Of a DNA stretch of 64,000 bases, positions 1 to 57,516 are shown piece by piece. The notes under the pieces are model-generated. The model saw only the letters and a program-made list of their open reading frames with translations, had not been told where the DNA came from and searched no databases. Every line of letters starts with the position of its first letter. Position 1 is the stretch's first letter. The position numbers and the translations under genes are program-made. Source of the DNA: a virus; IMG/VR virus record IMGVR_UViG_3300037193_003384, positions 1 to 64,000 of that record; one strand, given 5' to 3'.

Positions 1-200
1 ACGGACCAGCCCTTCCTGATCAGGATGCCGGTGACGATGTCGTCGGCGTCCGCCATGATCGTCTCCAGCGTGGCCAGGTCAGCGTCCTCCACCAGGCCGT
101 CGCCGTCGTCATCGAACAGCTCCACCAGGCGCGATGCGGTGATGCGCTGCTCGACCGCCTGCCGGCGATCGCTGGTGGTGGCCCCCCCGTACATCACCAT
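1..200 (-). CDS. Mu gp36-like protein (DUF1320), truncated by window edge
   Basis: The first 66 residues of a protein that runs off the left edge. It has an RLVELFDDDGDG stretch followed by a helical ADADDIVTGIL segment, the usual N-terminus of the Mu gp36/DUF1320 family, about 140 residues long and thought to act in head completion or the connector. The ATG at 200 lies four bases after the stop of the upstream gene. In Mu-type genomes the next gene is gp37, and a gp37-like gene lies at the right edge of this window. Family call rests on the N-terminus and gene order. Confidence 0.75.
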   Translation of the reverse strand, partial: MVMYGGATTSDRRQAVEQRITASRLVELFDDDGDGLVEDADLATLETIMADADDIVTGILIRKGWS

Positions 201-4621: not shown

Positions 4622-5641
4622 TCACGCAGCCAGCAGCTGCTCGATGCCGCTGGTGAAGCCCTCATCGGGCATGCGCGAGAAGATGCCGCCCGTGCCCTCC
4701 TGCACCATCGGCGCGCCCTGGGTGAGGGACAGCGAGCGCACGCGGCACCTGCAGTTGTACCCTGCGGGTGGGTAGCAGCGCTGCCAGAAGGGATCGTTCG
4801 CGCGCAGCACGATGCCGTGCATGGCCTGGTGCGTGGGGCGCTGCCGGGGCGGGCCGTCGCCCACGCCGAGCCACTGCCAGAAGGGCCGCAGCTCGAGCAC
4901 CTCGGGCTGGGTCATCTGCCGCGCGCGCCCGCCGTTGTAGGCGCCCACCACGTTGGTGCGGAACACGGTCTCGACGTGGCTCGGGTTCGCGGGCGTCCAC
5001 CCGGCGCTCTCGAAGCGGGCTGCCGCGTGTTTGCCGAACTCAGCCAGGTCCGCGCCCACCGCGATCTGCCGCAGCAGCTCACGCTTGACGGTGCGCACCA
5101 TCTCCTCGCTGGCTGCGTTCGCTACCGTGAAGGCGCGCTTCTTCGCCGCCGCCTCCATCTGATCGAACACGTCGCGGGTGACGGTCTCGCGCTCGAGGAA
5201 CCGCTTGATGGCTTCCGCCAGCGGGCGCGCGGCGAACTGGGTGTCGGTCTGAGCCAGCAGCCGCGGGTGCGCGTGCAGCGCGCCGAAGGCTTCGACCTTC
5301 ACCTGCGCGTCGTTCTCGCCCTCGTACCAGCTGTCCAGGGCGCCCAGCATGGAGCCCTGCAGGAGCTCACGCCGGACGGGGGCCTCGATGCGGCGGGTGC
5401 CGAAGCGATCGGCAGCCCCGTCGATCGCGCTGCGGATCGTGGTGGCGCTGGTCTTGCCGCGCACGGCGCTCACGATGGCGTCGGCGAGCGCGCTGGTGGC
5501 CGCCAGCGTCTCGTCCACGCCGCGCTCCACCATCAGGTCCGGCGTGCCGAAGACCGACGCGGGCTGCGCCGCCAGGCAGATGTGGCGGGCGGCGGCGATC
5601 ACGGCGCTGCGGGGGGAGGCGCCAGGCGGATCGGGCGCCAT
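4622..5641 (-). CDS. Head morphogenesis protein, Mu gpF/SPP1 gp7-like
   Basis: A 339-residue minor head protein of the gpF family, which sits near the portal and is packaged or ejected in several phages. Diagnostic features are the helical middle and the C-terminal block HVETVFRTNVVGAYNGGRAR, FWQWLGVGDGPPRQRPTHQA, then CYPPAGYNCRCRVRSLS, the classic F-domain signature. The start at MAPDPPGASP has a GGAAG ribosome-binding site; the gene overlaps the end of the portal gene by 43 bases in another frame. Confidence 0.85.
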   Translation of the reverse strand: MAPDPPGASPRSAVIAAARHICLAAQPASVFGTPDLMVERGVDETLAATSALADAIVSAVRGKTSATTIRSAIDGAADRFGTRRIEAPVRRELLQGSMLGALDSWYEGENDAQVKVEAFGALHAHPRLLAQTDTQFAARPLAEAIKRFLERETVTRDVFDQMEAAAKKRAFTVANAASEEMVRTVKRELLRQIAVGADLAEFGKHAAARFESAGWTPANPSHVETVFRTNVVGAYNGGRARQMTQPEVLELRPFWQWLGVGDGPPRQRPTHQAMHGIVLRANDPFWQRCYPPAGYNCRCRVRSLSLTQGAPMVQEGTGGIFSRMPDEGFTSGIEQLLAA

Positions 5642-7362
5642 TCGATCTTCCACACGGTCTCGCCGTTCACCACCTCGAAGTCCCGCACGCGTTCGATGCC
5701 GCAGAGCAGGCAGCGGTTGAGGCGCCCGTGTTCGCACCGCTCCACCTGCGCCTCGGTCATCTTCTGCGCCAGCGACGCGATGGCGTCGGGCTCATCCTCA
5801 TCGGGGCCCTGCGGCGCCGGCGGCACCTCACCCTCGGGTAAGGCACCGGCAGGCGGTGTCGCACGAGGAGGCCCCTCATCACCGCCTGCCGGAACGTTGA
5901 ACGCTGGCACGGGCACCTCGGCGAGCTCACCCGGCGTGGGCGCTTTGCCCGTCGGATAGACGATCTCGGGCGCGGGCGGCGGAGCGAGCTGCCCGAAGCC
6001 AGCCGGGCGCTGCACCTTCACGAGGTACGGCTGCCCGTCACGGATCTCCTGCACGCCCAGCTTCTCCTGCGCCTCCTCCACGCTCACGCGCAGCCCCAGG
6101 TCCAGCGCCTTCTGCAGCCGGTTGCCCTCCTCCTCGCGGCTCACGGGGGGCTCGGTGCGGAAGAGGAAGCGCGGCGCGTGGTCGACTTCCTGCGGCCCGA
6201 AGTTCACGGCGATGATCGCATCGGTCACCGCGTCCTCGATCGCCTCCGCCAGGCGCAGCGCGTCGGTGGCGATGATCAGATCCTCCTCGCTGAGATGCGC
6301 ATCGCCAATGCTCGAGCCGAGGCCCGTGCTCACCGCGTCCGTGGTGCCGGTGCTGCCGAGCACCAGCTTGCTCTGCACCTTCTCGGAGTGGCTGATGATG
6401 TCGCCGCTCACCTGCCCCGCGCCGCTGAATGGCTGGATGACGTCCAGGTCCCAGCCCTGCGGCAGCTTCGCGGTGTTGTGGTGGCCGAGCCGCTGGACCG
6501 CTTCATAGGCGGCCTTGCCCGTGTCGTCGTTGAAGGAGACCGCGCTCTCAGGGATGGGCTTCACCACGCGCCACGGGCGCCCGAAGACCTCCTGCAGCAG
6601 GTTGCGTTCACGCACGCCGCAGCGCCCGAAATACGACCAGTAGAGCGTGCGCGTCGCGAGCCCCTCGCGCTCGGGGTAGTCGCAGAAAAGCTGCGGCGTG
6701 TAGATGACGAACTTGTAAGGCACCTCCCCGATCGGGAAGCCCACGTCGCGGAACTCACCCACGTCCTGCCGGGTGTCGATGACGCGCAGATCGCGGTGCC
6801 GCCCGAAGCTGAGCCGGCGCGGGTGGATCCAGTTCAGGCCGATGACGTTCCAGCAGCCGCGGTAGTATTGCCAGTCGAGCTCACTCGCGGCGCGCCCATC
6901 GAAGACCGCCCACGCCAGCTTGGTGAGCGCATCGCGGAAGTGTGGGATGGCCTCGAGCTGCGCGCGCACGAAGGAGGCGTACAGCTCTGCCGTGTCCTGG
7001 TTGATGGCCTCACCCGTCGCGGGCACGACGTCCCAGCCCAGCGCCGCCACGCGGTTGATCCGCTTCTGCAGCACCGCCGAGAGGTGCCCGTCATAGGTGA
7101 GCTGTTCCCTGGCGATGTCCGTGAGCAGCATCATCCGCCCGCGCTCAGCGCTGCGCAGGGCGAAGTCGATGCGCTGCAGGTCGAGTAGCTTCCCGTGGTG
7201 CGGGCGCTCGTTTTCCGCCTGCGGGATCAGATCGGCGAAGAGGTGCTTCCCCAGGACACCTGCCTTCACGGGCGCCAGCGGTGCCGTGGTGGTCGCCTGA
7301 ATCGCTGCCCCTGCCGCAGCGTGCGCCGCGCGCCGGGGCCCCGCCCGCCCTCGCTTTTTCAC
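5599..7362 (-). CDS. Portal protein, Mu gp29-like (DUF935)
   Basis: A portal subunit of about 587 residues forming the dodecameric DNA gate and packaging docking site. It shows the DUF935 pattern: RSAERGRMMLLTDIAREQLT, HLSAVLQKRINRVAALGWDV, ASELDWQY, WIHPRRLSFG, FGRCGVRERNLLQEVFGRPW and a C-terminal IEDAVTDAIIAVNFG helix, then a proline-rich tail with HGRLNRCLLC. I chose the GTG at 7362 (VKKRGRAGPRR), because the in-frame ATG at 7473 overlaps the divergent gene and lacks a ribosome-binding site; the true start is uncertain. Confidence 0.85.
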   Translation of the reverse strand: MKKRGRAGPRRAAHAAAGAAIQATTTAPLAPVKAGVLGKHLFADLIPQAENERPHHGKLLDLQRIDFALRSAERGRMMLLTDIAREQLTYDGHLSAVLQKRINRVAALGWDVVPATGEAINQDTAELYASFVRAQLEAIPHFRDALTKLAWAVFDGRAASELDWQYYRGCWNVIGLNWIHPRRLSFGRHRDLRVIDTRQDVGEFRDVGFPIGEVPYKFVIYTPQLFCDYPEREGLATRTLYWSYFGRCGVRERNLLQEVFGRPWRVVKPIPESAVSFNDDTGKAAYEAVQRLGHHNTAKLPQGWDLDVIQPFSGAGQVSGDIISHSEKVQSKLVLGSTGTTDAVSTGLGSSIGDAHLSEEDLIIATDALRLAEAIEDAVTDAIIAVNFGPQEVDHAPRFLFRTEPPVSREEEGNRLQKALDLGLRVSVEEAQEKLGVQEIRDGQPYLVKVQRPAGFGQLAPPPAPEIVYPTGKAPTPGELAEVPVPAFNVPAGGDEGPPRATPPAGALPEGEVPPAPQGPDEDEPDAIASLAQKMTEAQVERCEHGRLNRCLLCGIERVRDFEVVNGETVWKIEWRPIRLAPPPAAP

Positions 7363-21856: not shown

Positions 21857-22020
21857 GCAGCCACCTCGTCATCCTCGTCGCTGTTGTCAGCGCAGCCGAG
21901 CGCGCAGATATGCGCAGCCTCGTTCCCCTGCCCGTCGAATAGCGGTCGCAGCAGTGCGACCCGGCTGCACCAGAAGTTGTCGCATAGCCCGATCACGAGC
22001 GCGTGTTCACGGCTTGGCAT
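21853..22020 (-). CDS. Small acidic-tailed protein, 55 aa
   Basis: MPSREHALVIGLCDNFWCSR, then AALGC-like Cys positions and a DNSDEDDEVAA tail. Too short for easy detection but linked by TGATG and GTGA overlaps to both neighbours. Function unknown. Confidence 0.5.
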   Translation of the reverse strand: MPSREHALVIGLCDNFWCSRVALLRPLFDGQGNEAAHICALGCADNSDEDDEVAA

Positions 22021-23366
22021 CACGCAGCCACCGCCATCGGGATGCGCTGCGGCTCCTCACCGGTGAGTTTGCGCCAGCGCTCCACGGTCACGTCGCAATA
22101 GGCGGGCTCCACATCGATGGCGAAGCAGCGGCGCCCCAGCTTCTGCGCGGCGATCAGCGTGGTGCCCGAGCCCACGAACGGATCGTACACGTCACCCTTG
22201 TGATTGCGGATCGGGCGGGCCATGCACTCGAGCGGCTTTTGCGAGCCGTGCGTGGTGTCCATGTCCTCGGTGCCCTTCTGGGTGAAGCCCACCTTCGACT
22301 GGATCGTCCAGAGCGTCGTCTGTTTGCGCCCGCCGATCCAGCCCGCGGTCTCCCCCTTGCGCACCACGTACCAGCAGGGCTCGTGCTGCCAATGGTAGTT
22401 GCCCCGGCTCATCACCAGCGCGGCCTTGCCCCAGATGATCTGCTGCCGCACGAGCAGCTTGGTGCGCGCCAGGTGCGCGGCCACCTCGGCGCCGTAGACG
22501 CCCGCGTGCCAGACGTATCCCACGGGCCCGTTGAACAGCGCGTAGGCTTCGGTCCAGTCGCGGCGGTTATCGTTGCGGATCGTGCCCGTGTGCTTCTGCT
22601 TCACGGGTGAGAACTCGTCGCGCCAGGTGCTGTCCAGGCTCACGCCGTAGGGCGGGTCCGTCACCATCAGCCGGGGCTTCGCGCCGTCCAGCACCAGCTG
22701 CACGACGTCAGCGCGCGTGCAGTCCCCGCACACCAGCCGGTGCTGCCCCAGGATCCAGAGATCGCCGGGCTGCGTGACGGGCACCGCCGGCGGCTCCGGC
22801 ACATCGTCATCGTCCATCTGCTGGTTGCCGCTCAGCGCCTGCAGCTCGGCCGCGCTGAAGCCGGCGATGTCCAGGTCGTTGGCGGTGAGCTCACCCGCGC
22901 CGATGATGCGCCCGAGCTCATCCGGGTCCCAGTCGCTGATCTCACCCAGCTTGTTGTCGGCGAGCGCCAGTGCGTGCGCGGCCGCGGGCTCCATCCGCCG
23001 CACGCGCACGGGCACCTGCGTGAGCCGCAGCTGCTGCGCCGCCTGCCAGGCGGTGTGCCCGATGATCAGCTCGCCCTCGCACCGGGGCCAGACGTTGACC
23101 ACCAGCGGGCGGCCCCACCCCCATTTGCGAATCGAACGCGCCACGGGCGCCACGGCCTTGGCGTTCTTACGCGGGTTCTGCACCCACGGCTTCACGCGTT
23201 CGATCGGCCACCAGGCGAAGTCGGGCAGCGTAGGATCGAGGCTGGGCTCGAGCCCATCCACCGTGCCCAGCACCACCGATTCAGGCTCGGACGGCGGTGA
23301 GCTCGAGCGCGCAGTGCGCCGCGAACGCGATCCCCCATCTGCCGCTCCCACCTTGCGCGCAGCCAT
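22020..23366 (-). CDS. ParB-domain DNA methyltransferase
   Basis: A 448-residue fusion. Residues 45-130 form a ParB/Srx nuclease-like domain (WVQNPRKNAKAVAPVARSIR and LIIGHTAWQAAQQLRL). Residues 200-440 form an amino-methyltransferase with DPPYGV (about 237-242) before DPFVGSGTT (394-402), the order of beta-class N6-adenine or N4-cytosine enzymes. Such phage enzymes protect DNA from host restriction or change regulation. The ParB-like part is the SAM-MTase-associated type, not a partition ParB with HTH. Confidence 0.88.
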   Translation of the reverse strand: MAARKVGAADGGSRSRRTARSSSPPSEPESVVLGTVDGLEPSLDPTLPDFAWWPIERVKPWVQNPRKNAKAVAPVARSIRKWGWGRPLVVNVWPRCEGELIIGHTAWQAAQQLRLTQVPVRVRRMEPAAAHALALADNKLGEISDWDPDELGRIIGAGELTANDLDIAGFSAAELQALSGNQQMDDDDVPEPPAVPVTQPGDLWILGQHRLVCGDCTRADVVQLVLDGAKPRLMVTDPPYGVSLDSTWRDEFSPVKQKHTGTIRNDNRRDWTEAYALFNGPVGYVWHAGVYGAEVAAHLARTKLLVRQQIIWGKAALVMSRGNYHWQHEPCWYVVRKGETAGWIGGRKQTTLWTIQSKVGFTQKGTEDMDTTHGSQKPLECMARPIRNHKGDVYDPFVGSGTTLIAAQKLGRRCFAIDVEPAYCDVTVERWRKLTGEEPQRIPMAVAA

Positions 23367-34439: not shown

Positions 34440-34777
34440 TGCCTGCGGGGGGGGTGCTGGCGGTGGCCGGCAGCGTGGGGATGGACACGCTGCCGGCGCA
34501 GTACCGCGAGCCCATGCGGCTGTACCTGGCGGAGGGCGTGCTGCCCGAGTGCGAGCTGCGTGAGCTGCTCGAGGGCGCGCTCGCGTGCGCCATCCACCGC
34601 AACGACGCCCGCCCTGGGCAGCGCCCGGTGAGCGACGTGCTGCTGGCTGCGCGCTGGATCGAGCAGCAGCTGCCCGCGTGCGCGCACGGCAACCGCGACC
34701 AGGTGGGGCTCTGGACGGTCTACGTTCGGCGGGCGCGCGGGCGCGCGCTGCTGGCTGCCCTCGGCGAGGTGGCGTGA
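34439..34777 (+). CDS. Hypothetical protein, 112 aa
   Basis: MPAGGVLAVAGSVGMDTLPA then REPMRLYLAEGVLPECELRE and SDVLLAARWIEQQLPACAHG. TGATG overlap with the preceding gene and GTGA overlap with the methylase. Mostly helical; function unknown. Confidence 0.52.
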   Translation: MPAGGVLAVAGSVGMDTLPAQYREPMRLYLAEGVLPECELRELLEGALACAIHRNDARPGQRPVSDVLLAARWIEQQLPACAHGNRDQVGLWTVYVRRARGRALLAALGEVA

Positions 34778-35370
34778 GCTTCGCCGGCTTCCGCTGCATC
34801 AGCGCCGACCCGCCGTGGCCGTTCAAAGACGCGCTGCCCGGCGGTGGCCGCGGCGCGGCGAAGCACTATGCGACGATGACCGTCGGGGCGATCTGCGCGT
34901 ACCGGCTGCCGCCGCTGCATCCGGATTGCTGGCTCTTCCTTTGGCGCCCAGCCACGCACCAGCAGGCGGCGATCGACGTGGCGGGCGCGTGGGGATTCGA
35001 TCGCCCACCCGCCGAGCTCATCTGGCGCAAGACCACGAAGGACGGGCGCCCGTGCATGGGGATGGGCCGCAGCGTGCGCAACGCGCACGAGACCTGCCTG
35101 GTCTTCCGGCGCGGCAAACCCACGCGGCTGAGCGCCAGCATCCTGTCCGTCTTCGATGCGCCGCGCGCTGAGCACTCGCGCAAGCCCGACGCGTTCTACA
35201 GCCTGGTGGATGCGCTGGTGCCGGGCCCGCACGTGGAGCTGTTTGCCCGCCGGCAGTGGCCCGGCTGGACGTGCCTGGGCGCCGAGATGGGCGCAGCCCT
35301 GCTGCCCCCGAAGCCTGCCCGCGGTGCCGCAAAACGTCTGCCCGCAACGGCCGAGACTGCGCCGATCTAG
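34774..35370 (+). CDS. MT-A70 family adenine methyltransferase
   Basis: A 198-residue protein with GTG start (VSFAGFRCISADPPWPFKDA). It carries the DPPW motif at residues 12-15, GGRGAAKHYATMTVGAICAY, WLFLWRPATHQQAAIDVAGA, AELIWRKTTKDGRPCMGMGR, and RNAHETCLVFRRGKPTRLSA followed by EHSRKPDAFYSLVDAL. These are the hallmarks of MT-A70 (N6-adenine) enzymes in phages. It is the second DNA methylase of this genome, likely a restriction escape or timing mark. Confidence 0.9.
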   Translation: MSFAGFRCISADPPWPFKDALPGGGRGAAKHYATMTVGAICAYRLPPLHPDCWLFLWRPATHQQAAIDVAGAWGFDRPPAELIWRKTTKDGRPCMGMGRSVRNAHETCLVFRRGKPTRLSASILSVFDAPRAEHSRKPDAFYSLVDALVPGPHVELFARRQWPGWTCLGAEMGAALLPPKPARGAAKRLPATAETAPI

Positions 35371-38449: not shown

Positions 38450-38689
38450 TCACGCAGGGCGGCGGGTACGCGGGGACCTGGGTACGGCGGCGGACCCAGG
38501 CTTCAGGCCGTCCTTCGCCAGCAGATCGAGCAGGTATTCGCGGATCTGGATCCCGCGCTCGAAGCAGCGGGCCTTCACCTTCTGATGCAGGTCCGCCGGG
38601 ATGTCAGCGTGCAGTCGCTTCTCCCCTACCCCGAATCTGTCCGCGCCCCGAGCCGCCGTGCGGCTTGGCCTTTCTGCCGTGTATGCCAT
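38450..38689 (-). CDS. Ribbon-helix-helix partner of ParA (candidate centromere-binding protein)
   Basis: A 79-residue protein starting [20 protein letters not shown] behind AAAGGA. Residues 24-60 ([20 protein letters not shown] and [16 protein letters not shown]) fit an RHH fold; N- and C-termini are basic and unstructured, as in ParG/ParR-type partition proteins. The gene overlaps the end of parA by 86 bases in another frame. With the short ParA this suggests a type Ib-style partition module. Function inferred from fold and neighbour. Confidence 0.7.
38464..38482 (+). repeat. 19-bp repeat flanking the partition genes, copy 1
   Basis: GGGTACGCGGGGACCTGGG, identical to 39388-39406. This copy lies inside the 3-prime end of the RHH gene, the other upstream of parA, so the pair brackets the locus in the same orientation. 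Confidence 0.55.
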
Positions 38690-39338
38690 GCGATCCTTTC
38701 TCCACTGCGCGCCAGATGCGCTTGATGTCCAGCCCTGCCGACTTGGCAGCGGCCACGGTGAGCACTGACTCGCCCACCTCCATTGAGGCCGGGAATGCAG
38801 CGCGCTGGCGCACGCACCCGGCATAGTGATCGGCCATCTGCAGCAGGCCGCTCTCGGCCTTGCCCGTCGCCAGCGCGCCGGTGATGGCGCGGTTCACCAC
38901 GAACGTGCGGCGCACCGGGCGGCGCCCGAGCTGCTCGCGGATCTGGTCCGCCTGGTCCAGTGACTCGAGCGTCTCGGCCAGCGCCCAGAAGTCGGCGGGC
39001 CCCGGCGCCACGGGTAGCACCACCACGTCGGCCGCGACGGCTGCGCTGAGCGTGATATCGCCGCGGCGCGCCGGGCCGTCCAGCAGCACCACGTCGTAGC
39101 CCCGGGACATGTCCTGGATGCGGGGCAGGGGCAGGGGCTTGGGCGCCTGCACGACGGTGAGCCCGGCGAGCAGCGATGGCTCCCCACGCTTCGCGCTCCA
39201 ATCGAGCGCGGTGCCCTGGGGATCCATGTCGATGATGAGCGTGCGGCGCCCGGCGAGGTGAGCAGCAGCGGCGAAGTTGACGGCCAGCGTCGTCTTCCCG
39301 CTGCCGCCCTTCTGTTGGAGGACGGCGACGGTGAGCAT
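38604..39338 (-). CDS. parA: ParA partition ATPase
   Basis: A 244-residue deviant Walker ATPase that moves plasmid copies on the nucleoid. [20 protein letters not shown] holds KGGSGKTT (10-17), [14 protein letters not shown] holds the A-prime motif (35-47), and [14 protein letters not shown] the Walker B region. It lacks the N-terminal HTH of type Ia ParA proteins. The ATG at 39338 has AAGGAG 10 bases upstream; an in-frame ATG 87 bases earlier lacks one. It is followed by an overlapping RHH gene, and a parS-like palindrome lies 106 bases upstream. Confidence 0.93.
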
Positions 39339-39380
39339 GGGGGGATGCTCCTTTTGGGGGGTAGGGGGGGAGGGCCGCGC

Positions 39381-39414
39381 GGACCTGGGGTACGCGGGGA
39401 CCTGGGGACCCCTA
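39381..39414 (+). repeat. Partition-locus repeat, copy 2, with GGACCTGGGG direct repeats
   Basis: Contains the 19-mer GGGTACGCGGGGACCTGGG (39388-39406) shared with 38464-38482, embedded between GGACCTGGGG copies, just upstream of the parA ribosome-binding site. Candidate operator or centromere for the RHH protein. Confidence 0.5.
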
Positions 39415-39441
39415 TAGCGCAGCACGAATCGTCGCGGTCAA

Positions 39442-53452: not shown

Positions 53453-54199
53453 TCACACGGGGGAGACGAAGACGCTGGCGCTGGGCGGCGACAACGGGCC
53501 ACCCAGCAGCTGCACGCCGGCCTCTGCAGCGCGCCCGAGGAACACGTTGCCCTTCAGCAACACGCGCTCCGCCTGCAGCGTGAGCTCGCCCTCCGTCATC
53601 CGCAGGAACGTGGAGCTGCCGACGGAGGCCACGAGCCCGGGCCCGGTGCCGGTCTCCTCGCTCAGCGTGAGAAAGACGCCATCGGCGTGCACCAGGGTGA
53701 TCGAGCTGTTGCCGTCGCTCGGATCGATGATGATCGCGTGCGCCTTCTGCGGCACGCCGGCGCCATCGAAGGAGTGCGGCACATAGAGCGTGGTCACGTT
53801 CGCGCGCTTCGAGCCCGAGGGATCGGCCGTCATCGAGTGCCCGACGAACGCCCCGCCGTAGCCGGCGAAGACGAACTGGCCCTCGCGCGGCGTGGTGCCG
53901 TTGCCGCTGGGGTTGAGCGCTCGGTGCAGCCGCAGGTCGCGGAAGGCGAAAGGCACCAGCCCGTCCTCGGTGCGCACCGTCAGCGCCTCGGCAAACAGAT
54001 CGCCCTCCGGAGGCAGCGGGCGCCCGATGATCCCCAGCGATTGGAAGACCTCCTGCTCGTGCGCCTGCTCGCCCTCGTCCTCATCGGCGCCGTCGAAGCC
54101 GCTGATGCCCGCCACGTTGAACAACGTCGCGCCACTGCGCCCGGCCACGCTCGAGGCGATGACCTTACAGAACTCGACGACGTGGTTCGCGAAGCTCAC
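53453..54199 (-). CDS. Baseplate assembly/spike protein, Mu gp45/gpV-like
   Basis: A 248-residue protein with GTG start (VSFANHVVEFCKVIASSVAG). Residues 95-180 hold an OB-like region (EGQFVFAGYGGAFVGHSMTA) and the C-terminal half has a spike-like beta pattern (AIIIDPSDGNSSITLVHADG, GELTLQAERVLLKGNVFLGR). Matches the membrane-piercing spike class of contractile phages. It is coupled (GTGA) to the replication initiator gene upstream. Confidence 0.68.
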   Translation of the reverse strand: MSFANHVVEFCKVIASSVAGRSGATLFNVAGISGFDGADEDEGEQAHEQEVFQSLGIIGRPLPPEGDLFAEALTVRTEDGLVPFAFRDLRLHRALNPSGNGTTPREGQFVFAGYGGAFVGHSMTADPSGSKRANVTTLYVPHSFDGAGVPQKAHAIIIDPSDGNSSITLVHADGVFLTLSEETGTGPGLVASVGSSTFLRMTEGELTLQAERVLLKGNVFLGRAAEAGVQLLGGPLSPPSASVFVSPV

Positions 54200-54993
54200 G
54201 CGCCGGGGAGTGTATCACTGCCGCGGGCTTCGATCCGGACGACATCGTTCTCCAGCTGCCATCCGCTGAGCACGCGGGTGCGAGTGAGCTCGAGTAGGGC
54301 TCCTTTCACCGCCTGGCGGAAGCGCCGCAAGCTGCGCGTTTGCGTATCCGACAGGCGGCGGATCTCAGCGAGAGAGACTGGCGCGGTCGTGGCGCAGAAA
54401 TAGTGCTGCAGCCAGCGCGCCAGGTTGCCGCGGATCTTCGCGCGCTGGTCCCAATCGAACGTGACATGGCGCTCGTGGAATAGGTGGACGATGTCCTCGG
54501 GCACGGTCACCTCGTAGGTTTCGTCCGCCCTCCACCGCAGCGTCATCAGCCCGCCGATGAACAGCTCGCCCGTCCCCATGTGCTGCACGGTGACGTGCGC
54601 CTTCGCCAGGTCCTCGAGCAGATGGAAGAGCTGATCGTACTGCGCGCCGCCGATCGACTTTCGAGCGCCGCCCGCCAGCTCGATCAGCATGGAGCGCGCG
54701 CGGAAGCTCACGCGGTTGGTCTCAGCGATGCGGCAGCGATACATCAGCCGCTCCCACACGTCCGCGTGCTCCTGCGTGAGCAGGCGCCCCTCGTATTCGA
54801 TGACCACCCCCTTCACGCTGGCGATGATCTGCCGCCGCACGTCGGGCGCGTCACGGCCGTGGCGCGCCGTGAACAGGGCGGACATGACGAAGTCGGTCGG
54901 TATCGCGTGCTTGAGCTCGGGCCAGAGCGGCAGCTGCGGCGGGCGCTGAGCGCGCTTCGCCTCGATGGCGAGCTGATTGATTGTTTTTGCCAT
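54196..54993 (-). CDS. trfA: TrfA-family plasmid replication initiator
   Basis: A 265-residue protein from MAKTINQLAIEAKRAQRPPQ. It follows the TrfA layout: LPLWPELKHAIPTDFVMSAL followed by FTARHG, GVVIEYEGRLLTQEHADVWE, VSFRARSMLIELAGG, GELFIGGLMTLRWRADETYE, RAKIRGNLARWLQHYF and a C-terminal FRQAVKGALLELTRTRVLSG. TrfA proteins bind iterons and load helicase for theta replication of IncP-type plasmids. Iterons begin 26 bases upstream of the ATG. No virion gene would need this protein. Confidence 0.88.
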   Translation of the reverse strand: MAKTINQLAIEAKRAQRPPQLPLWPELKHAIPTDFVMSALFTARHGRDAPDVRRQIIASVKGVVIEYEGRLLTQEHADVWERLMYRCRIAETNRVSFRARSMLIELAGGARKSIGGAQYDQLFHLLEDLAKAHVTVQHMGTGELFIGGLMTLRWRADETYEVTVPEDIVHLFHERHVTFDWDQRAKIRGNLARWLQHYFCATTAPVSLAEIRRLSDTQTRSLRRFRQAVKGALLELTRTRVLSGWQLENDVVRIEARGSDTLPGA

Positions 54994-55018
54994 TTGGCAC
55001 CGGGGGGGCACCGCCGAC

Positions 55019-55134
55019 GATACGGCATTGCTGGTACGTTTGGAGGGCCCGATGCGGCAGGGCTGGTACGCTTCGGGGGGTCGATGCGGCAGGGCTGGTA
55101 CGCTTGGAGGGCCCGATGCGGCAGGGCTGGTACG
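55019..55134 (+). repeat. Four 32-bp iterons, candidate plasmid origin
   Basis: Copies begin at 55019, 55051, 55083 and 55115, exactly 32 bases apart. The core is GATGCGGCAGGGCTGGTACG; copy 1 differs at three core positions, copies 2-4 share the full core. The spacer CTTGGAGGGCCC is shared by copy 3 and nearly by copies 1 and 2. The 32-base period is close to three helical turns. They lie directly upstream of the TrfA-like gene, where Rep binding and autoregulation are expected. Confidence 0.85.
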
Positions 55135-55207
55135 GCCCGCGAACCATGTTGCGTGCGGCCGGCGATCCGATCTAGAGCCTGCCGCGCGGCAGGCGCGCGC
55201 GCGATCG

Positions 55208-55265
55208 ATCTTTAGCACCAGCGCCTTCTGAGGTAGCGGCGAGCCGCTGCGGCTCCGCTAAAGAT
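55208..55265. promoter_or_regulatory. Inverted repeat in the replicon divergent region
   Basis: ATCTTTAGC (55208-55216) and GCTAAAGAT (55257-55265) are perfect 9-bp arms around 40 bases that contain a smaller AGCGG/CCGCT hairpin. It lies between the iterons and the small plus-strand genes. It might be an operator, part of the origin, or a terminator. Confidence 0.5.
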
Positions 55266-56169: not shown

Positions 56170-56243
56170 TTGCGCGGGCTGGATTTGAACCAGCGACCTC
56201 CGGGTTATGAGCCCGATGGGGTACCGTGCTCCCCTACCGCGCA
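56170..56243 (-). tRNA. tRNA-Met (CAT), initiator-like
   Basis: A 74-nt cloverleaf. Acceptor TGCGCGG pairs with CCGCGCA; D arm GGGG/CCCC; the anticodon stem has G29-G30-G31 with C39-C40-C41 around CTCATAA; T loop TTCAAAT. The three G-C pairs and a purine-11:pyrimidine-24 pair (G11-C24) are marks of initiator tRNA. Position 1-72 is T-A, weak but paired. The 3-prime CCA is not encoded (A73 is followed by CAG). It lies between the gpP-like gene and the plasmid replicon. Confidence 0.9.
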
Positions 56244-56367
56244 GTTGGTTGGCACGCCGACGGTGGACGGTGAGGCTGCTGGCGCGTGGGGAATACCGCT
56301 TCTCCCCGTGCAACCCAGCCCCAGCCTTAGCGGAGACCTTGGTCCGCCGCCGACGCGCCGCGATCAG

Positions 56368-57516
56368 TCATAGCACCCAGACGCCCTGCTTCACCATCGT
56401 GATCCGCGAGACGTCACCCTCCCCTGCGCTGCGGCTGAGCTCGGCTTCTTCAAGGTAGTAGTTGCCCAGCGCGCCGCCCAGGTGCGTGGCGACCACATCG
56501 AACACCGTATCGGGTGACCACGGAAACAGGTGGCTGCCCTCGGTGTAGCTGAGCCCGTCCACGGTGACCGTCAGTCGATCGAGACCGCGGTTGCGCGTGG
56601 CCAGCTCACGGCGGGCCCGGGCCTCGGCGAGCGAGCGCGACTTCATCGCCTCGTCGTTGATGATCACCTGCCGGCTGAAGCCGCGATCGATCAGGTCCTG
56701 GTTGAGCTGCTCACCGAACAGCCGCGTCTTCGAGGTGTCCTTGCCCGAGCTCACCCCGAAGACGCCCAGCCGCGTGGGCGCCTGGCTGACGTCGTTGGTG
56801 CGTTCGATGCTGAGCACGTTGTTCATCTGCCCCGAGGGATGGCGGTAGCAGCAGAGCATGCCCATCGCCTCCTGCTGGTCGTCGGGCGCGCCCACCACGA
56901 TGCGCCCGTCGGGCCCATCCCAATGCAGCATGCCGTGCCGGCGCAGGTGCCGATCGACGGCGCTGAAGATGGACTCGGGTGGGTTGACCTTCGCCTGCTC
57001 CTCCTTCAGCGGCTCGAGCGGGCGCGCCGGTGTGGCGCCCTTCGAGGGCTTGCCCGTCATCAGGTCACGCGAGACGTCGACTTGGAAATCGAAGTCACCT
57101 TCGTCCAGCCCGATCCCCGCGTAGCACGCGAGCACGAAGTCTTTGATGCTGGCGTTTTTGAGCTGCACCTTCTGCGGCGCGCTGGAGATGACCGCGTCGC
57201 TCATCTTCGTGCGCACCACGAACGACTGCACCGTGCCCTGCTCAGCGTCGCACGGCGAGCTCAGCGCCTCCACGCGTCCGAGCATGCGCGCCCGGTCATT
57301 CACCACCACGCAAAACACGGCGCCCAGCCCGCAGAGGGTTTGGATGCGCTGCCAGCCGGTCTCATCGCCCAGCTCGAACGCGGCCTCCGCCGGGGCCACG
57401 ATGCTGTTCGTGACGCGGAAGCTGGTCCAGTCTTGGAAGTTGAAGTCGAAGAGCGTCGTGTTCTGCGTCGTGCCGACGGCATTGATCCGCACCACGTCCA
57501 GCGGTGAGCGGCTCAT
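56368..57516 (-). CDS. Baseplate hub protein, Mu gpP (gp44)-like
   Basis: A 382-residue protein of the gp27/gpP hub family. N-terminus SRSPLDVVRINAVGTTQNTT, then RVTNSIVAPAEAAFELGDE, AMLGRVEALSSP-type first barrel, IKDFVLACYAGIGLDEGDFD and a central SIFSAVDRHLRRHGMLHWDG and RIVVGAPDDQQEAMGML, matching gpD/gpP hubs. It sits under the tail tube and anchors the spike. Stop 125 bases from the tRNA. Confidence 0.78.
   Translation of the reverse strand: MSRSPLDVVRINAVGTTQNTTLFDFNFQDWTSFRVTNSIVAPAEAAFELGDETGWQRIQTLCGLGAVFCVVVNDRARMLGRVEALSSPCDAEQGTVQSFVVRTKMSDAVISSAPQKVQLKNASIKDFVLACYAGIGLDEGDFDFQVDVSRDLMTGKPSKGATPARPLEPLKEEQAKVNPPESIFSAVDRHLRRHGMLHWDGPDGRIVVGAPDDQQEAMGMLCCYRHPSGQMNNVLSIERTNDVSQAPTRLGVFGVSSGKDTSKTRLFGEQLNQDLIDRGFSRQVIINDEAMKSRSLAEARARRELATRNRGLDRLTVTVDGLSYTEGSHLFPWSPDTVFDVVATHLGGALGNYYLEEAELSRSAGEGDVSRITMVKQGVWVL

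Follow-up and report, generated by a model that had tools for sequence, protein, structure and literature searches.

The 64,000-nucleotide stretch of viral DNA analyzed here (the window) carries an intact tRNA gene of the initiator type, located behind a tail-hub gene, whose fold has been kept by selection in three related phages. The encoded tRNA likely functions as an initiator, and we put at roughly 60% the probability that the phage gene supplies a working initiator that supplements, or takes the place of, that of the host late in infection. The simplest reason for carrying such a tRNA would be that the host initiator pool is limiting or attacked.

ARAGORN recognizes a complete 74-nt tRNA-Met (CAT) on the minus strand (Table 1), and the Rfam model RF00005 matches it from end to end (65.1 bits, E = 7.1e-12). 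Read from 5' to 3', the tRNA is UGCGCGG UA GGGG AGCACGGUA CCCC A UCGGG CUCAUAA CCCGG AGGUC GCUGG UUCAAAU CCAGC CCGCGCA A, with the anticodon at 56207-56209, the three G-C pairs of the anticodon stem formed by G29-G30-G31 and C39-C40-C41, a D stem built of G and C only (GGGG/CCCC), and A73 as the discriminator base. The DNA continues with CAG directly after A73; hence, CCA is not encoded. All of the features listed in a preliminary description of this DNA are present in the sequence: the CAT anticodon, the three G-C pairs, the purine-11:pyrimidine-24 pair, T-A at 1:72, and the lack of an encoded CCA. A second unusual acceptor-stem pair, C5:G68, was missing from that description. The match is not a chance one, given the scores and the presence of syntenic orthologs with compensatory changes (see below).

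Table 1. Features of the tRNA gene and of its genomic surroundings, in window coordinates.
Feature	Position	Strand	Evidence
tRNA gene, initiator (fMet) type, anticodon CAT, no encoded CCA	56170..56243	-	ARAGORN, Rfam RF00005, initiator profile
Anticodon arm UCGGG-CUCAUAA-CCCGG, three consecutive G-C pairs (56212-56214 with 56202-56204)	56200..56216	-	Sequence
A72, pairs with U1 at 56243; bacterial initiators mismatched there	56171	-	U:A here, A:U in both relatives
G68, pairs with C5 at 56239; reverse of the bacterial G5:C68	56175	-	Common to both relatives
Spacer from hub stop to tRNA, 124 nt, long hairpin fold (13-bp outer stem)	56244..56367	-	Fold z -2.53
Baseplate hub gene, directly upstream; tRNA next, same direction	56368..57516	-	phrog_177, E 4.5e-19
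TrfA-like plasmid replication initiator, next gene of notable size downstream, same strand	54196..55218	-	Pfam PF07042, E 2.8e-9; plasmid TrfA matches, 31% identity
ParA-like partition ATPase	38604..39425	-	phrog_164, E 1.8e-37

Three G-C pairs in the anticodon stem mark initiators in all domains (PMC4611024; PMC7949028). The preliminary description had proposed to score the tRNA as an initiator versus an elongator, and we did so with sequence profiles, rather than covariance models, built from 86 distinct bacterial initiators and 27 non-initiator CAT tRNAs; a fixed anticodon-arm motif was used to select the bacterial initiators, and the set therefore represents only tRNAs of that type. The initiator is preferred, with 52.7 bits against 38.0 for elongator-CAT (a margin of 14.7), and the copies in two relatives score 71.5 versus 44.7 and 76.3 versus 47.2 (margins of 26.8 and 29.1 bits). 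The reverse holds for nine bacterial elongator-type CAT tRNAs, which reach 11-29 bits on the initiator profile and 54-65 on the elongator profile. The G/C-only D stem, C5:G68, and U1:A72 account for the low score of the window tRNA relative to other initiators. The traits of elongator tRNA-Met and tRNA-Ile-CAT, namely Y11:R24, the usual G1:C72, and an anticodon stem without the three G-C pairs, are absent from it. An elongator or a lysidine-dependent Ile-CAT identity is rejected on the basis of the profile scores, G11:C24, U1:A72, and the three G-C pairs.

Relatives of the phage were found by searching viral contigs with the hub protein, which is 79% identical in L014, 75% in L167, 66% in L015, and 53% in L168 and L169. 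L014 and L167 each carry one tRNA per record, which is of the initiator type and lies about 7 nt past the hub stop, as opposed to 124 nt in the window phage; the ends of L167 are also identical (87 bases), and this genome is probably complete. The hairpin-forming spacer occurs only in the window phage and may represent a small insertion or serve in processing. No tRNA above threshold is present in L015, and none was found in L168 and L169, whose contigs are possibly incomplete. The gene is hence dispensable.

In the three tRNAs (window, L014, and L167), the G-C triplet of the anticodon stem and the anticodon loop are invariant, and each molecule forms 21 pairs, such that all 63 cells are paired and none is broken. 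Six of these pairs have changed on both sides, including 1:72 (A-U versus U-A) and 11:24 (A-U in both relatives versus G-C in the window tRNA), compared with zero to one such pairs in slid controls. The spacer DNA outside the tRNA could not be aligned with L014. Compensatory double changes within diverged flanks point to selection on the folded tRNA, a conclusion drawn from three sequences that rests on the pattern of double changes and not on a large sample. This bears directly on the idea that a host tRNA-fMet gene was acquired by chance and is now drifting as a neutral passenger. Such an origin would fit the absence of the gene from the more distant relatives and the lack of an obvious promoter of its own (no sigma-70-like promoter was seen near the window tRNA). 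Yet three diverged phages have all retained the gene, and their copies show six compensatory double changes and unbroken pairing next to flanks that no longer align. These changes largely refute neutral drift, which we consider very improbable.

Apart from the window tRNA, the 66,144-bp record as a whole contains no tRNA. Window positions 1-141 are repeated exactly, in direct orientation, at record positions 66004-66144; given this 141-bp terminal repeat, the record very likely represents a complete circular genome with a length of 66,003 bp. The word "lone," used for this tRNA from the outset, thus holds for the entire phage. The genome is that of a contractile-tailed virus, with genes for sheath, tape measure, two hub proteins, wedge proteins, portal, and major head protein, and it also encodes TerL, DnaB, a RecE-like nuclease, a sigma-like factor, and an endolysin. 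In addition, a ParB-like nuclease domain is fused to an adenine DNA methyltransferase at 22020-23366, and a separate MT-A70 methyltransferase lies at 34585-35370.

Many temperate phages integrate at tRNA genes, which serve as their attachment sites, and the window gene could in principle be a scar of such an event, that is, an attachment-site copy of a host tRNA. Six-frame searches of this genome and of four relatives revealed neither a tyrosine nor a serine recombinase, and no stretch of at least 14 nt of the tRNA, its 3' half included, has a second copy elsewhere in the genome. The tRNA gene is moreover full-length, and plasmid-type TrfA and ParA are present instead of an integrase. An integration remnant, which the preliminary description had named as a concern to be checked through use of the 3' end as an attachment site, is refuted on current data by the missing integrase and the missing duplicate of a 3' tRNA segment, and retains next to no probability. 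Together with the profile score, the hallmark positions, and the conservation in relatives, the lack of any sign of integration use bears out the initiator type proposed earlier.

The combination of TrfA and ParA without a recombinase makes a plasmid-like prophage plausible and tRNA-based integration not. With its TrfA-like gene beside tail genes, a ParA-like gene, and no integrase, the virus is likely a phage-plasmid. A TrfA-like gene occupies the equivalent place in L014 and L015 (detected by Pfam) and in L167 (by blastp only); it was not found in L168. The plasmid matches of TrfA and ParA weakly suggest Burkholderia-, Xanthomonas-, or Pseudomonas-like hosts, and the hub protein, used as a query against genome contigs, phages, and plasmids, returned no usable relative pointing to a host.

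The pair at 1:72 could be regarded as a flaw in the initiator assignment, as had been raised in the preliminary description. Formylation is guided by a 1:72 mismatch together with A11:U24 (PMC4611024; PMC7949028); position 1:72 is mismatched in 85 of the 86 distinct bacterial initiators and paired in one, and A11:U24 occurs in all 86. In the window tRNA, both determinants are altered, 1:72 being Watson-Crick and A11:U24 being replaced by G11:C24, which keeps the purine:pyrimidine order. U1:A72 is a weak pair, in keeping with an initiator if only a strong pair is excluded at this position, but not if the mismatch seen in nearly all of the bacterial set is required; in none of the three related phages is the position G-C.

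To place this pair, initiator-type tRNAs were collected with the same motif from viral contigs and from GTDB genomes, and a second viral sample was obtained with a different T-loop motif. Position 1:72 is paired in 19/83 and 19/92 distinct viral initiator-type tRNAs in the two samples, nearly always as U-A, A-U, or G-U, with G-C found in only 1/83 and 1/92. In viral elongators, aligned by base pairing as a control, it is paired in 375 of 384 cases and is G-C or C-G in 273 of them. The contrast between viral and bacterial initiators is pronounced in the raw counts (Fisher p = 5e-6) and weakens as similar sequences are merged (p = 0.004 at 95% identity, p = 0.047 at 92%, not significant at 90%). 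A weak 1:72 pair is a recurring state of viral initiators, and a strong pair is avoided; the near absence of G-C fits a pressure to stay formylatable. The pair noted at the outset is thus real, but with weak pairs in about a fifth of viral initiators and G-C nearly absent, U1:A72 should not disqualify the window tRNA as an initiator.

A weak 1:72 pair might alternatively lead to partial formylation, in which case the tRNA would serve both chain start and internal methionine. Human mitochondrial tRNA-Met, which has G1-U72, is partly formylated and performs both steps (PMC7949028), and a classic paper announces in its title, as cited in PMC9976931, that a single base change makes the E. coli initiator elongate in vitro. 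Pairing at 1:72 in some 20% of viral versus 1/86 bacterial initiators would also agree with such dual use. The rigid anticodon stem with its three G-C pairs is, however, fully retained, and about three quarters of viral initiators keep the mismatch. We therefore regard a dual-use methionine tRNA as unlikely.

The departures common to the three phages, at 1:72 and 5:68, both fall in the acceptor stem. C5:G68 is present in all three, whereas 84 of the 86 distinct bacterial initiators have G5:C68. Viral initiators as a group diverge more in this region: relative to the T stem, the divergence of pairs 2-7 is 0.42 (bootstrap 0.33-0.49) in viral and 0.16 (0.11-0.21) in bacterial initiators, and the G4-G6:C67-C69 block is intact in 49/83 and 48/92 viral versus 75/86 bacterial tRNAs. 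The prophages and possible host flanks in the viral collection would make this difference smaller rather than produce it. The variation could come from a relaxation of constraint, or it could be an answer to some factor that recognizes the acceptor stem. Six viral contigs (L052, L063, L072, L124, L130, and L137) carry initiator-type tRNAs with an unusual acceptor stem (a TTCAGGG-like 5' strand) and odd 1:72 combinations, several of them with an apparent 2:71 mismatch.

One way to account for these departures is that the altered acceptor stem, with its 1:72 pair and C5:G68, hides a working initiator from host toxins or nucleases directed at tRNA-fMet. The toxin AtaT reads the same acceptor-stem region: flipping one of the G4-G6:C67-C69 pairs of Met-tRNA-fMet, including to C5-G68, leaves acetylation at 25-50%, and A1-C72 leaves activity at about 20% (PMC7595197). 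Rescue from tRNA-cutting defenses by phage tRNAs is, moreover, proven (PMC11555353), and the location of both shared departures and the greater divergence of viral acceptor stems would be expected if concealment were under selection. Later work, however, suggests that AtaT toxicity in cells proceeds via elongators and not the initiator (PMC9177977), for which reason AtaT is cited here only as an example of acceptor-stem reading; as the specific toxin evaded, it is weakened as a candidate. Relaxed constraint would yield equal divergence, the standard anticodon loop would offer no protection against VapC-type cutting of tRNA-fMet, and phages generally avoid carrying tRNA-fMet, the VapC target, according to one survey (PMC10264068). 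We thus hold concealment from host defenses to be possible but doubtful. Its generalization, that phages widely carry lone initiators with rebuilt acceptor stems that are initiation-competent and unreadable to host systems disabling tRNA-fMet, is more speculative still. If true, it would amount to a counter-defense at translation initiation with the acceptor stem, and not the anticodon loop, as its point of action.

In the favored reading, late supply of initiator, the tRNA would be co-transcribed with the late tail genes, receive its CCA from the host enzyme, and be charged by host MetRS via the CAU anticodon. The host formylase would then modify it, possibly less completely than host tRNA-fMet owing to the weak 1:72 pair, and the three G-C pairs would admit it to the ribosomal P site, such that the host initiator supply is supplemented or taken over as infection proceeds. 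An extra start tRNA for the phage, the role first proposed for the gene, remains its most probable use, as judged from sequence and conservation. The accompanying rationale, that many phage starts are GTG or leaderless, finds no support: the CUCAUAA loop is that of standard bacterial initiators, which would leave start-codon choice unchanged, and both AUG and GUG are already read by the initiator of the host.

The debate on why phages carry tRNAs deals with elongators and centers on codon usage and on anticodon nucleases. Because this initiator recognizes just the start codons that the host initiator does, codon usage cannot explain why it is carried, and a conserved lone initiator isolates the other explanations, dosage or defense. 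In the pattern that the census adds, the anticodon arm of viral initiators is conserved, G-C is avoided at 1:72, and the acceptor stem is more variable than in bacterial initiators. The question of why phages rebuild the acceptor end is directly testable. Late initiator supply would be the simplest purpose, and escape from defenses that read host tRNA-fMet is a candidate purpose and, in our view, the most interesting one.

Lone start tRNAs are common in viral contigs: 141 of 224 viral stretches from two motif scans have no second tRNA, "lone" being meant locally here, for stretches of up to about 15 kb. Four contigs (L325, L328, L335, and L360) instead contain two initiator-type motifs exactly 231 bp apart and apparently form a related group with duplicate initiators, and another viral contig (L009) has a tmRNA gene at 5491-5905 among 22 tRNAs, several of them Met-CAT. 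Initiator-type tRNAs in phages are of an already known kind, as exemplified by Caulobacter phage CcrSC, whose Met-CAT tRNA is annotated as tRNA-fMet. The initiator-type motif was also confirmed in Nocardia phage P3.1, Micromonospora phage pMLP1, Bordetella phage PHB04, and Streptomyces phage Annadreamy. A literature search, mostly of openly readable papers, found none devoted to phage initiator tRNAs.

Compared with bacterial tRNA-fMet (e.g., E. coli metY/metZWV), the window tRNA shares CAU in a CUCAUAA loop, the three G-C pairs, R11:Y24, A73, G2:C71, C3:G70, and G4:C69. It differs in having U:A in place of the 1:72 mismatch, C:G in place of G5:C68, and a GGGG/CCCC D stem with G11:C24 in place of GAGC/GCUC; its best identity to the sampled bacterial initiators is 84%. 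CcrSC, P3.1, and pMLP1 resemble the window phage in carrying an initiator-type tRNA, but 1:72 is mismatched in P3.1 (T-T) and pMLP1 (A-A), unlike the U-A seen here, and no protein relatives of the present hub were found in these three phages. A possible shared role, in which a phage copy replaces a host tRNA, links the window tRNA to T5 tRNA-Tyr acting against retron-Eco7 and to the tRNAs that counter PrrC; those rescuing tRNAs are elongators with an experimentally demonstrated function (PMC11555353), whereas the window tRNA is an initiator whose role is predicted from its sequence. Human mitochondrial tRNA-Met, finally, combines a paired 1:72 with initiator duty, as does the window tRNA, but it does so in an organelle, where it alone covers both initiation and elongation (PMC7949028).
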